64,000 nt of DNA from positions 49,428 through 113,427 of the forward strand of contig JAFVYZ010000007.1 of NCBI GenBank assembly GCA_017508425.1, written 5' to 3'. This stretch comes from Clostridia bacterium (GTDB lineage Bacteria; Bacillota; Clostridia; Oscillospirales; CAG-272). Made by a program: the position numbers and the translations under genes. The notes beneath the pieces were generated by a model. That model was not told the origin of the DNA, did not search any database, and saw nothing but the letters and a program-made list of their open reading frames with translations. Below, one piece after another: positions 42,895 through 48,390 of this stretch; position 1 is the first letter of the stretch, and each line of letters starts with the position of its first letter.

Positions 42895-43902
42895 TTATTT
42901 TCCCGCACGGCGGATCGCCGCCGTCACACGGTCGTTTGCATTTTTCACCTTCAAATAAAGATCGGGACGCCCGCGTGCAATGACGCCGAAAAGCTCATGC
43001 GCAAAATCGGGGGCAAGCTCCTCCACGCCCGAAAAATCAAGCTCTGCCACGGCAAAGCCCGCGAGAATTTCGCCTAAGCGACGCGCCTCGGAGCGCGACA
43101 CGGGATCGCTGCCGCCAAAAATGCGCGAGAGCGGCACTTCGGTGCGCACAAAGCCCTCCTCGGGGTCAATGTAACGTGCCATGACCTCGCCAAGATCCTT
43201 TGCGGTATCATTGGCAAGTGCCATTTGCACGGCAGTACCGCGAAAGCGGTCGCTCACCTCCTCGGCATCCTCACGGTTCAGGGTAAAGAGCTCCATATCC
43301 GAGCGAATGGCAAAATGGTCCATCAGGCGCGAGGTGAAGAAGATCCCCTGCCCTGCATGGCGCTCGGGCAACGACGTGTAGCCGCCCGCAAAGAGGAGCG
43401 ATGCCGCCTCGCCCGTGGTGATCGTCTCGCCCGTTTCCTCACGCTGCTGCTGTTGGATACGGCGGAAGATGCCCACGCCGTTATCCAGCACGCCGACAAT
43501 GGTAGAAAGCCTGCTGCGGTTGACCACCACAACGATCGCCGAGGCACGTGCGTGCTCAAGGGCATTGTTGAGCATAGCGGTAACGGCATAACGCCAGATC
43601 TTTTGCACATTGAGTGGCAGCTCCTCCAAAAGAGGTGCGACGTCGCGGTTGTAAATACGGTCCTCAGAGCTCTCCTTTGAGGTGTCGATCGTGAAGCGCG
43701 TGGTGCGATACAGCACGCGGTAAGGCATAGAGCCGCCAACGCGCTCGAGCTCGCCCGTATCCTGCAGGCGATTGATATAATTATAAACGGTAGAACGAGA
43801 GAGCGAAAACGCCTCCATGGTTTTATCTACAAAATCGGGATCTTCCTCATAAATGCGTTGCAGTAAGAATTTTTCGGCCAAGAGCCGTTCGCTTTTCTTC
43901 AT
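42895..43902 (-). CDS. HTH-GHKL ATPase-DUF4325 fusion regulator
   Basis: A 335-residue single-chain regulator of unusual make-up. N-terminal winged HTH (about 8-60: FVDKTMEAFSLSRSTVYNYI), a GHKL/histidine-kinase-like ATPase (about 95-235) with N box MLNNALEHA, G1 box VLDNGVG (138-144) and glycine loop AGQGIFFTSRL (183-193), then a STAS-like DUF4325 domain (about 260-330: LGEILAGFAVAELDFSGVEELAPDF). There is no phospho-accepting histidine domain or membrane part. ATPase plus STAS-like pairing resembles an anti-sigma/anti-anti-sigma switch in one chain. The function is not known to me. ATG at 43902 after GGAGG. Confidence 0.82.
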   Translation of the reverse strand: MKKSERLLAEKFLLQRIYEEDPDFVDKTMEAFSLSRSTVYNYINRLQDTGELERVGGSMPYRVLYRTTRFTIDTSKESSEDRIYNRDVAPLLEELPLNVQKIWRYAVTAMLNNALEHARASAIVVVVNRSRLSTIVGVLDNGVGIFRRIQQQQREETGETITTGEAASLLFAGGYTSLPERHAGQGIFFTSRLMDHFAIRSDMELFTLNREDAEEVSDRFRGTAVQMALANDTAKDLGEVMARYIDPEEGFVRTEVPLSRIFGGSDPVSRSEARRLGEILAGFAVAELDFSGVEELAPDFAHELFGVIARGRPDLYLKVKNANDRVTAAIRRAGK

Positions 43903-44135: not shown

Positions 44136-44164
44136 TTTACAAGACCGAAATATTGTGATATACT
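44136..44164 (+). promoter_or_regulatory. Promoter of the leader-peptide-LRR operon
   Basis: TTTACA (44136-44141), 17 bases, TATACT (44159-44164). The predicted start at about 44171 coincides with the first strand of the closing stem of the structured leader. Confidence 0.75.
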
Positions 44165-44169
44165 GGATG

Positions 44170-44380
44170 TGTCACACAAATTCAATATGCAGTATGGGCG
44201 TTTTTTCAATGGGGAAATTATGCCTTTTTTGCGCATGCTTAAAACAGCTTTTGCATAGGTAAAAATGCACTCTCACCCTGTTTTAGTAGTGCGCTTTTAA
44301 GCCATACTGTACAGAATTTGTGTGACAACAATTGGAGTTTGCGTTTTTCGGTGCGGCAACTCCGGTTGTCGCACTTTTTT
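44170..44380 (+). promoter_or_regulatory. Structured attenuator/riboswitch-like leader
   Basis: Nested perfect stems: P1 TGTCACACAAATTC (44170-44183) with 44314-44327; P2 CAGTATGG (44190-44197) with 44302-44309; P3 TAAAACAG (44240-44247) with 44278-44285; P4 TGCAT (44252-44256) with 44265-44269. Directly after P1, 44328-44342 can pair with 44356-44369, and the P1 3' strand GTGTGACAA (44320-44328) can pair with TTGTCGCAC (44366-44374). Both would break the terminator at 44351-44380. This is the layout of a transcription-attenuating leader. I recognise no known riboswitch or T-box sequence. A short inverted-repeat element is the main alternative, but no target-site duplication is seen. Confidence 0.72.
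44351..44380 (+). terminator. Leader terminator upstream of the peptide gene
   Basis: GTGCGGCAAC/GTTGTCGCAC stem (one G-U pair), TCCG loop, followed by T6. It lies inside the 5' leader, 37 bases before the start codon of the small peptide gene. Confidence 0.9.
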
Positions 44381-44416
44381 ATTTGGCGAAAAACAAAGCA
44401 TGGAAAGGAGAAAAAA

Positions 44417-44575
44417 ATGAGACTCAAATTACCTTACGAACGCCCCAATACCAGTGTGGTTCTCATCAACATCACCGACATCATCACCGCCAGCAGTGGC
44501 ACCAATACACCGCCGCCCCCCACCCCCGAAACCGATTGGGAGGACGACAACGTCATCGACGATGGCTGGATCTAA
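44417..44575 (+). CDS. Small peptide (52 residues) ahead of the LRR protein
   Basis: Starts MRLKLPYERPNTSVVLINIT, then DIITASSG, a proline-rich TNTPPPPTPET and an acidic tail EDDNVIDDGWI. AAAGGAG lies seven bases before the ATG and only 17 bases separate it from the next gene, so it is translated and cotranscribed. No signal peptide, no cysteines. I recall peptides of this general form (YEKPxxEVV...DIITTSG) in gut Clostridia, but no function. A RiPP precursor is not supported because no modifying enzyme is nearby. Confidence 0.7.
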   Translation: MRLKLPYERPNTSVVLINITDIITASSGTNTPPPPTPETDWEDDNVIDDGWI

Positions 44576-44592: not shown

Positions 44593-47500
44593 ATGAAAAC
44601 ACGTTCGTTTAAAAAGCTGATAGTCACCGTCTTGCTGATGTGTGTGGTTGTGAGCACAGTGCTTGTCACCGCGTACGCTGTAAGCAACACCACCAAAGCA
44701 ACCGACGTCAAAATGGAGATCGTTGCCAACAACGTCTCCTACTCCGACTCGCTCTACATCCTTTATGCGATCAGCCATGAGGGCTTTGACCGAGCCGAGC
44801 ACGAAATCAAGATGCTCTTCTGGGACGAGGCGCGCGATAGCTACGCCCTCGGCACGGAGGATTACTCGGTCAGCAACAGCGGCAAGACCAAGGTAAAGGG
44901 CAAGGAATGCCTTGTGTTTTACACCCACGGTATCGCCGCCAAGGAAATGACCGATAGCATCTATGCACGCGCTTGTGTTGTCATTGACGGTGCGGAGTAC
45001 TACACCGACGTAATGAAGTTCAGCGTGCTGGAGTACGTTTATGCCGCCAAGCAACAGGGCAACATTGGCAACGGCCAGCTCAAGCTCTTTACCTCGATGC
45101 TGGAGTACGGCACGGCCGCGCAAAACAGCTTTGGCCACAATACCAATCGCCCCGCAAACGGTACTTACTATAAGATCAGCGTTGTCAACGGCAAGCTGCC
45201 CGACGGCTTTACCGAGGGGCTGTATCTGGCCAACCAAAAGCCGGTCCTCACCGCAAACGAGCCGGCACAGGGCCTGCGCTTCTCCCACTGGATCGATGAA
45301 AACGGCATCATCGTCAGCTTTGACCGCGAGTTTGAGATCACCGTTGGCGGCAAGGCCAAGACCTACACCGCCATTTACAAGGACGTCTCCAACGTGGTTG
45401 CCCAGCTGATGCTGAAGGCCGAGATCCCCTATAACGGTGACCTTGAGGACGTGGACCTCCCCACTGCCGTGACCTTTGAGGTGGGCGGCAATACGGTAAC
45501 GCTGGACGTCACCTGGGACACGAGCCACTTTGCGCTCTCCACCATCGGCCTGCAACGCATTTATGGCCAGCTGGTGGATCTCACGGCTTACACCACCTAC
45601 GGCATTGAGCCCGGCAGCATCGTGCTGGAGGTCACCACCCTGCCCTATGCCTACGAGCTTGACCCCAACAACGGCGAGTACGTGATCACGGGCTACTACG
45701 GCACCGACGAGCGCATCACCCTGCCCTCCACCTATAGGAACACCTACATCACGCGCATTGCCACCAGAGCCTTTAACAGCGTAATAACTCTGCGCGAGGT
45801 CGTGATCCCCGACACGATCCAAAAGATCGACAACGGCGCCTTCTTCTACTGCGATAATATCGAAAAAATGACCGTGCCCTTCGTGGGTGAGAGCGCTACC
45901 TCCTCCAACTCCTGGTTCGGCTGGATCTTCGGTGCTACGCAGTACGATGCACAGCACGGCATGTTGCCCCTGCGCTTGAAGGCGGTGACCCTTGCCGACG
46001 GCGCAACCAAGGTGCCGAATTATGCATTCTATAAGTGCACGCAAATCGAAACCTTTAATATCCCCAACGAAGTGACAGAACTGGGTATCTATGCATTTGG
46101 TTACTGCACTCAGCTGACCGAATTTACGCTTCCAAATAATTTGAAACGTTTTAATTCATCCTTCGCAGATACAAACATTACCAAAATATACACCAACAAC
46201 ATAGATTTGCTTTACTCCCTTAGCGGTAATACGTCCGGTGCTTGGGATTCTCCGTTTGGCTACGGCGCAGATCTTTACTGCAACGGAAAGCTTGTCACAG
46301 AGCTCATAATCCCCAGCGGTGTCACCAATCCTGGACGTTTTTTGAAGCATTGCACAAGTATCAAAAAAATCGTTATCCCCGCTTCTGTCACCGAGTTCAG
46401 CCAAAATGCATTCACCGGAATGACAGCTCTTGAAGAAGTGATTTTTGAGGATCCCAGCAGCATCACGGACGTTTTTGGACTTTTCGGCGGATGCACAAGT
46501 TTGAAGAGTGTCGATTTGTCCGGCTTCACCAACCTGAAAACGCTGGGCGGCGGCATCTTCAGCGGTTGCATCTCCCTTACTGACGTCAAGCTGCCCACCG
46601 GCTTGACCGCCTTGGGCAATTCTGCATTCTCGCAGACCGCCATCAGGGAGATCTCCCTGCCCGAGGGCATTCAAAAGATACCGTATGATTGCTTCTGCGA
46701 GTGCACACAGCTGGAAAGCATCACCATCCCCAACGGCGTGGTGGAGATCGGTGAACGTGCATTTTATGGCTGCTCCTCCCTGCGTCGGGTCACCATGCCC
46801 GCCGCGCTGGTCTCCATTGGCAGAGATGCTTTCCGCGATTGCACCAAGCTGTCCGTCATCGACCTGCCCGAGCGCCTGTACGACATCGGATCCTATGCAT
46901 TCTATGGCTGCTCCAACCTTGCCAAGCTGATCATCCGCTCCGACAGACTCACCTCCATCGGCGGCAGCGCATTCTCCTATTGTACCAAACTGGTTGAAGT
47001 TTACAACCTTTCCTCCCTGACCTTCACCGCCGGCAGCACCGACCACGGTTCCGTAGCGCAATACGCCAAGGTGGTCCACACCTCTCTTGAGGAAGCTACA
47101 CGGGTAGCCGTGGATGCCAACGGCTTTATCATCTACACCGACGAGGTCGAGAACCTGATCCTCGGCTACGCGGGCAACGAAACCGAGATCGTGATCACCG
47201 CCCCCGGCAACGGCAAGCCCACCCGCATTGCGGAAAGGGCATTCTATGATAACGATAATCTGACCAAGGTGACGATTCCCGCAGGCATCACCGAGATCGG
47301 TACTAATGCATTCTATAGTTGCCCCAACCTTACAAGCGTCACCATCGGCAGCAGCGTAGAATCTATCGGTGAACAGGCTTTCGGGTATTGCAGCAAGCTC
47401 GTCGAGGTCATCAACCGATCCTCCCTCCAGATTGAAAAGGGCAGCTATTCCAACGGATACGTTGCTTATTACGCAATCGAGGTGCATAACGGAGAGAGCA

Positions 47501-48390
47501 AGCTGAGCAAGGTAGGCGACTATCTCTTCTATACCTACAACGGTGTTTATTATTTAGTGGCATATATCGGCAATGATACGGCAATCACCCTGCCCGAGAG
47601 CTACAACGGTAAGAGCTACGTGATCAATCAGTATGCGTTCTTTGATTGCGACAACCTCACAAGCGTCACCATCGGCAACGGTGTTAAGAACGTTGGTGCG
47701 TACGCCTTCAAACACTGTTCAAAGCTGCAAAGCATCATAATTAACAGCAAGGAGGTCGTCTTTGCCCAAACCGCGTTCGAAGATTGCAACGCCGCACTCT
47801 TCACCGAGGATGACTATGGCACCTACGTGGGCACGGTGGATAATCCTTACGCCATTTTGATTTCGGTAAAGAGCCAAAACCTCACCACCTACGTGATCCA
47901 CGAGGGCACACAGTTTATCGCCCGCGGTGTCTTTAGGTATTGTGATAACATGACGAGCGTCACCATTCCCGATAGCGTGACCACCATCGGCAATGATGCG
48001 TTCAAAAGCTGCTCCAACCTCACAAGCGTCACCATCGGTAATGGGGTCACTACCATCGGTGAGTGTGCGTTCTCTGGTTGCACGAGCCTTACAAGCGTCA
48101 CCATCGGCAGTGGCGTAGAGATCATCGGTGAGCAGGCATTCTACAGCTGCATCAAACTCACAAGCATCGTTATCCCCGACAGCGTGACCACCATCGGCAG
48201 CTATGCGTTCTGCTACTGCTCCAACCTCACAAGCGTCACCTTTGAGAACGCCGAGGGCTGGTACGTAACGCAAACGGCAGGCGCCACCGACGGAACCAAC
48301 CTGACCCTTGACGACACCGCGCAAAACGCCAAGTATTTGCGCAGCACTTACTACTTGTATTACTGGTACCGCAATGACGTAACGGCATAA
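44593..48390 (+). CDS. BspA-type leucine-rich repeat secreted protein
   Basis: A 1265-residue exported protein. Signal peptide MKTRSFKKLIVTVLLMCVVV to about residue 30, a leading domain of about 170 residues, an InlB_B-like beta region (GLRFSHWIDENGIIVSFDRE, about 235-260), a bacterial linker domain to about 350, then many BspA/TpLRR (LRR_5) repeats of the form LTSVTIGNGVTTIGEYAFSGC to the end. No LPXTG, GW or membrane anchor at the C-terminus, so it is secreted or attached another way. Such proteins bind host or bacterial surfaces. The ATG at 44593 follows AAGGAG; in-frame codons upstream overlap the peptide gene in another reading and are not coding. Near-identical repeat DNA at 47930-48250 suggests recent repeat expansion. 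Confidence 0.9.
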   Translation: MKTRSFKKLIVTVLLMCVVVSTVLVTAYAVSNTTKATDVKMEIVANNVSYSDSLYILYAISHEGFDRAEHEIKMLFWDEARDSYALGTEDYSVSNSGKTKVKGKECLVFYTHGIAAKEMTDSIYARACVVIDGAEYYTDVMKFSVLEYVYAAKQQGNIGNGQLKLFTSMLEYGTAAQNSFGHNTNRPANGTYYKISVVNGKLPDGFTEGLYLANQKPVLTANEPAQGLRFSHWIDENGIIVSFDREFEITVGGKAKTYTAIYKDVSNVVAQLMLKAEIPYNGDLEDVDLPTAVTFEVGGNTVTLDVTWDTSHFALSTIGLQRIYGQLVDLTAYTTYGIEPGSIVLEVTTLPYAYELDPNNGEYVITGYYGTDERITLPSTYRNTYITRIATRAFNSVITLREVVIPDTIQKIDNGAFFYCDNIEKMTVPFVGESATSSNSWFGWIFGATQYDAQHGMLPLRLKAVTLADGATKVPNYAFYKCTQIETFNIPNEVTELGIYAFGYCTQLTEFTLPNNLKRFNSSFADTNITKIYTNNIDLLYSLSGNTSGAWDSPFGYGADLYCNGKLVTELIIPSGVTNPGRFLKHCTSIKKIVIPASVTEFSQNAFTGMTALEEVIFEDPSSITDVFGLFGGCTSLKSVDLSGFTNLKTLGGGIFSGCISLTDVKLPTGLTALGNSAFSQTAIREISLPEGIQKIPYDCFCECTQLESITIPNGVVEIGERAFYGCSSLRRVTMPAALVSIGRDAFRDCTKLSVIDLPERLYDIGSYAFYGCSNLAKLIIRSDRLTSIGGSAFSYCTKLVEVYNLSSLTFTAGSTDHGSVAQYAKVVHTSLEEATRVAVDANGFIIYTDEVENLILGYAGNETEIVITAPGNGKPTRIAERAFYDNDNLTKVTIPAGITEIGTNAFYSCPNLTSVTIGSSVESIGEQAFGYCSKLVEVINRSSLQIEKGSYSNGYVAYYAIEVHNGESKLSKVGDYLFYTYNGVYYLVAYIGNDTAITLPESYNGKSYVINQYAFFDCDNLTSVTIGNGVKNVGAYAFKHCSKLQSIIINSKEVVFAQTAFEDCNAALFTEDDYGTYVGTVDNPYAILISVKSQNLTTYVIHEGTQFIARGVFRYCDNMTSVTIPDSVTTIGNDAFKSCSNLTSVTIGNGVTTIGECAFSGCTSLTSVTIGSGVEIIGEQAFYSCIKLTSIVIPDSVTTIGSYAFCYCSNLTSVTFENAEGWYVTQTAGATDGTNLTLDDTAQNAKYLRSTYYLYYWYRNDVTA

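Follow-up and report, generated by a model that had tools for sequence, protein, structure and literature searches.

A probable new family of transcription-attenuating leader RNAs, with a promoter at fixed distance, in Clostridia

Results

What is the tightly structured stretch that precedes a surface-protein gene at positions 44136 to 44416 of a 64-kb piece of Clostridia DNA (the window, i.e., all 64,000 nucleotides analysed)? A preliminary description, made from the letters alone, took it for a candidate new attenuator or riboswitch-like leader that should be switched off when its closing stem, P1, is closed. We find its observation sound as a whole: promoter, P1, nested stems, intrinsic terminator and an overlapping antiterminator can all be verified letter by letter (all on the + strand).

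The sigma-A-type promoter (44136-44164) has the -35 box TTTACA at 44136-44141, a 17-nt spacer that ends in the TGA of an extended -10, and the -10 box TATACT at 44159-44164. It would place the transcript start near 44171, at the 5' strand of P1, where the start had been predicted. P1 joins 44170-44183 to 44314-44327 by 14 perfect pairs. Nested within it, as described, are further perfect stems: P2 (44190-44197/44302-44309), whose part of the leader is highly variable across the family introduced below; the two stems of P3 (44231-44235/44290-44294 and 44240-44247/44278-44285, the 5' strands lying in 44231-44247 and the 3' strands of P3 and P2 together in 44278-44309); and the P4 hairpin (44252-44269, stem 44252-44256/44265-44269). 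The P4 region carries the motif GGUAAAAAYGC (44258-44268), conserved in both subtypes of the family. Downstream of P1 lies the terminator (44351-44380), with a stem of 10 pairs, one of them G-U (44351-44360/44365-44374), a loop at 44361-44364 and a T-run at 44375-44380. The antiterminator, previously drawn as 44328-44342 with 44356-44369, is verified as 44328-44339 with 44358-44369 (12 pairs, two G-U), its 3' strand inside the terminator. What had been overlooked is a long-range pseudoknot: AAAAATGCACTCTC at 44261-44274 can form 12 of 14 pairs with GAGTTTGCGTTTTT at 44335-44348, and the latter strand overlaps the 5' strand of the antiterminator.

Both genes named as regulated are present. The terminator sits just upstream of the Shine-Dalgarno (SD) sequence (44405-44410) and ATG of the first open reading frame (ORF, 44417-44575, +), which encodes a 52-aa acidic peptide; a Pfam search assigns this peptide to no family, and weak matches (E 0.002-0.003) occur in two of 38 relatives. 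The second ORF (44593-48390, +) encodes a 1265-aa BspA-type leucine-rich-repeat protein (Pfam LRR_5, E 1.1e-153) with a hydrophobic N terminus. On the other side, the divergent neighbour (42895-43902, - strand) combines a DUF4325 STAS-like domain with a sub-cut-off HATPase-like match and is possibly a regulator.

The leader fold beats all 200 dinucleotide shuffles (z -6.1), and none of 2000 mononucleotide shuffles of the region contains a 14-bp inverted repeat. P1 by itself is not unique, however: its 14-mer is one of 13 in the 64 kb that are followed, 60-250 nt further on, by a perfect inverted partner. An Rfam 15 scan of the window, one of the checks proposed along with a covariance search, returns no match at or above gathering score, in line with the statement that no riboswitch core or T-box was recognised; the best sub-threshold match to the leader is Aar (E 0.93, 20.2 of 60 bits). 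In 20 loci with copies of the leader, the element itself is likewise unmatched (three tRNAs and one Gut-1 RNA are found outside it), and neither these loci nor the window has a T-box match. The Gut-1 match (L014:1836-1915, - strand, 51.8 bits against a gathering score of 50) lies just downstream of the gene behind one copy and looks like a repeat of short palindromic units, not a part of the leader.

The next question is how far the leader is distributed. A search with its DNA gives matches in 29 of 59 genomes, its own included, nearly all within one 70-base stretch (44315-44385); the match in one genome (G020) is unrelated and only 26 bases long. From 49 of 52 aligned entries (one wrong-strand match and two second cores were left out) we built a covariance model, R1, of this 3' module only. 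With it, homologous modules are found in 91 of 146 genomes of the bacterial family (E<=1e-3) and, at E<=1e-4, in 85 of 245 genomes from the order and 77 of 291 from the class, the own genome counted each time; a single genome may hold as many as 17 copies. A sample taken across the phylum gives a match in the own genome alone (1 of 398); we read this as a sample dominated by other classes, a reading that the 21 rows listed, with five order members and nine class members without match, do not prove. A pattern scan of named genomes gives at least 118 stretches, 117 from Clostridia-classed records and one unclassified among the matches listed, and the record titles give ruminant or rabbit gut samples as the source of many.

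The own genome has four copies. The fourth (G000:C8:55151-55221) keeps the 3' module and lacks P1 (7 of 14 pairs), which we read as a degenerate or different variant. Tandem pairs of leaders stand before one gene at L162:6459-6828, L150:482-716 and L144:4161-4650 (- strand); each copy of the first has its own promoter-like sequence, and the downstream copy of the last seems reduced. The window's leader has no match among 72,556 plasmid records. The copy of locus L014 has three matches among phage records; all three records are labelled as phage, unverified and unannotated, and come from human faeces. The module also occurs on three IMG/VR contigs, which look alike where read. On the two contigs for which ORFs were called, a small membrane-protein ORF follows the copy, and the main neighbouring ORFs point in the opposite direction; from their sequences we take these neighbours to be phage structural genes, and the membrane-protein ORF appears to be placed like an accessory phage gene. 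Two of the IMG/VR copies (L248:5270-5790 and L250) have the P1 variant GCCACATAG/CTATGTGGC, in which pairing is kept.

Because R1 contains neither the 5' strand of P1 nor the loop strand, both can be tested independently of the search. R1 yields 224 distinct matches, nine of them with too little upstream sequence; of the remaining 215, 20 have no register for the 3' strand of P1 (leaving 195) and seven more no 5' candidate (leaving 188). At least 13 of 14 P1 pairs form in 146 of these 188 elements, compared with 103 of 970 in a control with swapped strands. Altogether 47 of the 215 fall below 11 pairs, i.e., the 20 and the seven just mentioned and 20 that score 6-10. The 168 elements with at least 11 pairs reduce to 155 non-redundant copies at less than 92% likeness, the set used hereafter. 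Among these copies, selected as they are for P1 pairing, column 4 of P1 is C-G in 106, G-C in 29 and U-A in 17, and column 6 is A-U in 90 and C-G in 64; the 14-bp closing stem of the window thus shows compensatory changes across the family. In 130 of the 155, the end of the -10 box lies exactly 5 nt upstream of the P1 register, and this fixed distance makes the promoter part of the unit; an alignment of 97 of the 155 promoters shows the T and the G of the extended -10 conserved at 94% and 93%. By length the copies divide into 115 long (type A) and 40 short (type B), with different inner stems. Outside the bacterial family, 40 class-level copies were taken, 36 with an exact core and four read by eye. 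In a looser, unanchored P1 test, the best P1-like helix of the 36 has a mean score of 35.9 against 25.7 for swapped strands, and reaches at least 25 in 34 of 36 against 104 of 173; L289 and L312 are the copies with a low P1 score.

We turn to the pairings that compete downstream of P1. In 153 of the 155 copies the stretch after P1 finds its best upstream partner in a strand that holds an A-run and always has the same orientation; the typical loop strand reads GGUAAAAAYGCAAAYUCC. The pseudoknot helix scores 30.5 in real copies, 27.4 when strands are swapped between copies and 17.8 when shuffled. Its core is near-invariant and hardly variable, so the support for the pseudoknot rests on complementarity, on the extension of the helix and on two compensated cores. 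In each subtype the extension of eight positions outscores every one of 2000 permutations, although its lead is modest (6.76 real against 6.59 swapped pairs of 8 in one subtype, 5.28 against 4.84 in the other); at its position +2, the mostly A-U pairs of one subtype give way to mostly U-A or U-G pairs in the other. The compensated cores, in which a near-invariant G-C becomes A-U, are those of L194 and L297. Among the other GUGUUUUU-type cores, L278 and L311 have only G-U at that pair, and L312 has two such cores, one with the strand AAAAAUGC upstream and the other without a partner by pattern search. The loop strand also pairs locally, in P4, again with two-sided changes.

We also scored the helices in combination, on 60 type-A copies (that of the window and 59 picked at random among those 107, out of 115, that stay within limits of length and P1); the shuffles ignore kinship, i.e., related copies are not independent. 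For P1, pseudoknot and terminator together, 97.2% of the cells are paired (90.1% when shuffled), 20 pairs have two-sided changes (10.1) and covariation is 0.307 (0.161, and at most 0.094 when the strands are slid by 1-3 columns); none of 500 shuffles is as high on any of the three measures. For P1, P4 and antiterminator, 93.9% of the cells are paired (85.7%), 19 pairs have two-sided changes (10.1), and the covariation of 0.296 (0.134 shuffled, at most 0.096 slid) is reached by none of 500 shuffles. From 39 of the 40 type-B copies (L214 left out), RNAalifold arrives by itself at P1, the local hairpin and the terminator, with two-sided changes in 18 of 33 pairs. The antiterminator, which is kept in the family, scores 24.7 real, 21.6 swapped and 15.2 shuffled, a modest gain of real over swapped, and the terminator stem, which covaries, scores 24.2 real and 18.6 swapped. 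Mean predicted energies are -14.9 kcal/mol for the terminator, -9.3 for the antiterminator and -16.9 for the pseudoknot duplex, compared with which the window's own pseudoknot, with its two mismatches, is below the usual strength at -10.9. The terminator is predicted to be the stronger of the two hairpins in 151 of 155 copies, and antitermination must therefore be kinetic or assisted.

The family tells against one part of the preliminary description. There, P1 was the gate: closed, it would free the terminator, and open, its 3' strand (44320-44328) would pair with 44366-44374 and antiterminate. These nine pairs do exist in the window. As a family feature they fail: a pairing as strong as that of the window is found in only two of 155 copies, its own included (family mean 14.5, against 13.8 swapped and 11.4 shuffled), and it is thus not the conserved gate. 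The idea of an off switch is right in outline, with the pseudoknot and not the opening of P1 as the conserved gate. The claim of a new structured attenuator leader gains support from the missing Rfam match and from compensatory changes in P1 and the other helices; two features of an attenuator, conserved structure and mutually exclusive terminator and antiterminator, are found as sequence and covariation.

Which genes follow the leader? Downstream of the T-run, 140 of 155 copies have, within about 160 nt, a start codon with an SD-like sequence before it; in 97 of these the start lies 10-29 nt after the T-run. The 128 of 140 first ORFs of at least 45 aa fall into 76 BLAST clusters with no evident shared pathway, and Pfam finds 73 families among them, LRR_5 being the commonest (12 of 128); as a class, these targets are not amino-acid genes. 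Proteins directed outward are enriched: among the 93 first proteins that reach 100 aa, 26 have a lipobox-like N terminus (28 of 688 other ORFs, about sevenfold, Fisher p 4e-12) and 54 a signal-like one (122 of 688, Fisher p 1e-15), where the background is the other ORFs in loci from L069 on and the ORF, lipobox and signal calls come from our own simple scripts. The second largest cluster (16 proteins) consists mainly of a small Cys-rich protein. A small Cys-rich protein with a core like ITGVELTPGEPTVCLGNGEQGFECCCDECDYYLLCFPEFD recurs as the first ORF in several genomes (L014, L006, L020, L069, L211 and others). CxxC is moderately enriched (32 of 93 first proteins, 113 of 688 in the background), and CC.[DE][DE]C occurs in 13 of 47 short first ORFs. 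Such Cys motifs suggest that metal or thiol sensing may be involved.

Discussion

In our reading the region represents one member of a new family of cis-acting leader RNAs that attenuate transcription and come with a promoter at fixed distance, and formation of the pseudoknot would turn transcription off; we give this reading a probability of about 0.7. At the level of sequence comparison, the evidence shows the promoter register, P1, pseudoknot, local hairpin, antiterminator and terminator together with their overlaps. The mechanism can be pictured as follows. RNA polymerase would start at the first strand of P1, and the leader would fold such that P1 and the inner stems display the conserved loop strand, to which GGAGUUUGCGUUUUU, directly 3' of P1, is complementary. 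When these two pair across P1, the antiterminator strand CAAUCGGAGU would be occupied and the terminator would fold (OFF). When the loop strand is held off by the local hairpin or by a bound partner, CAAUCGGAGU could instead pair with ACUUCGGUUG in the terminator (ON). ACUUCGGUUG is common to antiterminator and terminator, GGAGU is common to antiterminator and pseudoknot, and pseudoknot and terminator are adjacent and mutually compatible; because of this sharing of strands and this compatibility, termination with the pseudoknot and antitermination without it is the simplest scheme. The direction of the switch, its co-transcriptional timing and one common signal (a metabolite, a protein or an RNA) for all copies are inferred.

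The same anatomy could work with the opposite sign. If the loop contacts only UGCGUUUUU (8 pairs, in the loop of the antiterminator), the contact would be compatible with the antiterminator, and such kissing would stabilise it and reverse the logic to ON. The best conserved part, the core AAAAAYGC::GCGUUUUU, does lie outside the antiterminator stem. The pairing, however, reaches toward GGAG in both subtypes, by the extension that exceeds all permutations, and of the 115 type-A copies, 107 pair the last C of AAAYUCC in the pseudoknot and only 13 in the local hairpin; we thus hold the reversed sign to be unlikely. The nature of the signal is a separate matter. Many riboswitches are pseudoknot leaders whose terminator overlaps, and a strict small-molecule riboswitch with its ligand pocket at the junction of P1 and pseudoknot, which is compatible with the pseudoknot-OFF reading, is a serious possibility on which we would still not bet: conserved unpaired letters (AATA after P1, GGU before AAAAA) speak for it, whereas few conserved letters are common to both subtypes once the competing helices are set aside and the many clusters of first proteins have no evident common pathway. 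In Firmicutes, leaders are the targets of known protein antiterminators such as LoaP-type NusG paralogues and ANTAR proteins, and one of these two kinds might act on this leader as well. A second NusG-domain match, however, is present in one of 14 element-rich and three of 14 element-free genomes, and an ANTAR protein in five of 14 and 11 of 14, respectively. Since their co-occurrence does not track the element in these 28 genomes, both are disfavoured as a common partner, and we regard a role of either as improbable.

The remaining alternatives are disfavoured by the comparisons. The preliminary description set a mobile repeat (MITE) against its own reading, and several copies per genome before unrelated genes, the tandems of L144, L150 and L162 and the phage-labelled contigs would fit a recently mobile repeat with a chance terminator. 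Yet copies within one genome are at most 77% alike over the whole element, and their mean inner likeness of 57% (G167, 36 pairs) and 64% (G174, 15 pairs) compares with 57% and 58% for the upstream flanks (three of 20 stretches, L256, L258 and L264, were unrecognised by the script); this low likeness, together with the compensatory changes seen in the family, makes a MITE very improbable. Even less credence goes to phase variation by inversion of the promoter or leader, for which P1 would supply the inverted repeats. Inverted repeats do enclose a stretch of 100-190 bp before surface-protein genes, but the A-run strand keeps one orientation in all but two copies, the -10 box stands outside the repeats at fixed distance, and P1 sequences vary among copies. 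A leader-peptide attenuator, for which a 23-codon ATG frame at 44187-44258 could be cited, is just as hard to believe: that frame has no SD-like sequence before it, and SD-preceded frames of at least eight codons are less common in the real leaders (13 of 155) than in shuffled ones (28 of 155). With no sign of a conserved frame, the statement that no leader ORF was recognised stands.

How does the family compare with known systems? Like the transcription-terminating fluoride/crcB and ZTP/pfl riboswitches (crcB and pfl are treated in PMC2864571), it has a 5' leader, a pseudoknot and a terminator that overlaps conserved structure. What sets it apart is that its promoter stands in a fixed register, that it has no known ligand, that few letters are conserved beyond the competing helices and that its targets, enriched in secreted proteins, are very diverse. 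With T-box leaders it shares several stems, a choice between antiterminator and terminator and several copies per genome; it differs in having no Rfam match and in targets that, where examined, are not amino-acid genes as a class. In LoaP/RfaH-type and ANTAR antitermination, too, leader elements steer termination, and the difference lies in the regulators, whose distribution over the 28 genomes, for LoaP-type and ANTAR proteins, does not follow that of the element. We found no description of the family among the papers listed by our literature searches, though a fragment may already be catalogued in supplementary motif lists. One set that could hold such a fragment is that of structured-RNA candidates from the human microbiome (PMC8040213), an automated set of 3161 with 230 predicted terminator-like palindromes; in its main text, the words 'promoter', 'pseudoknot' and 'lipoprotein' do not occur.

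A wider picture may be drawn, as a speculation that is more likely wrong than right by a good distance. In a system that spans the gut Clostridia, one common signal would set the expression of up to about 17 secreted, surface and accessory loci per genome through portable cassettes of promoter and attenuator. Since loop strand and complement are the same from copy to copy, terminated leaders may also pair in trans with other nascent leaders, which would make a self-referencing network that extends to phage-labelled contigs.

Conclusions

A structured RNA without an Rfam match is present in 77 of 291 sampled genomes of the class, with as many as 17 copies each. The leader family is a compact test case for pseudoknot-gated termination. 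The genes that it marks, about sevenfold richer in lipobox-like proteins, are part of the display of these bacteria toward host and neighbours, and identifying the signal would open a first handle on the control of surface proteins in uncultured gut bacteria.
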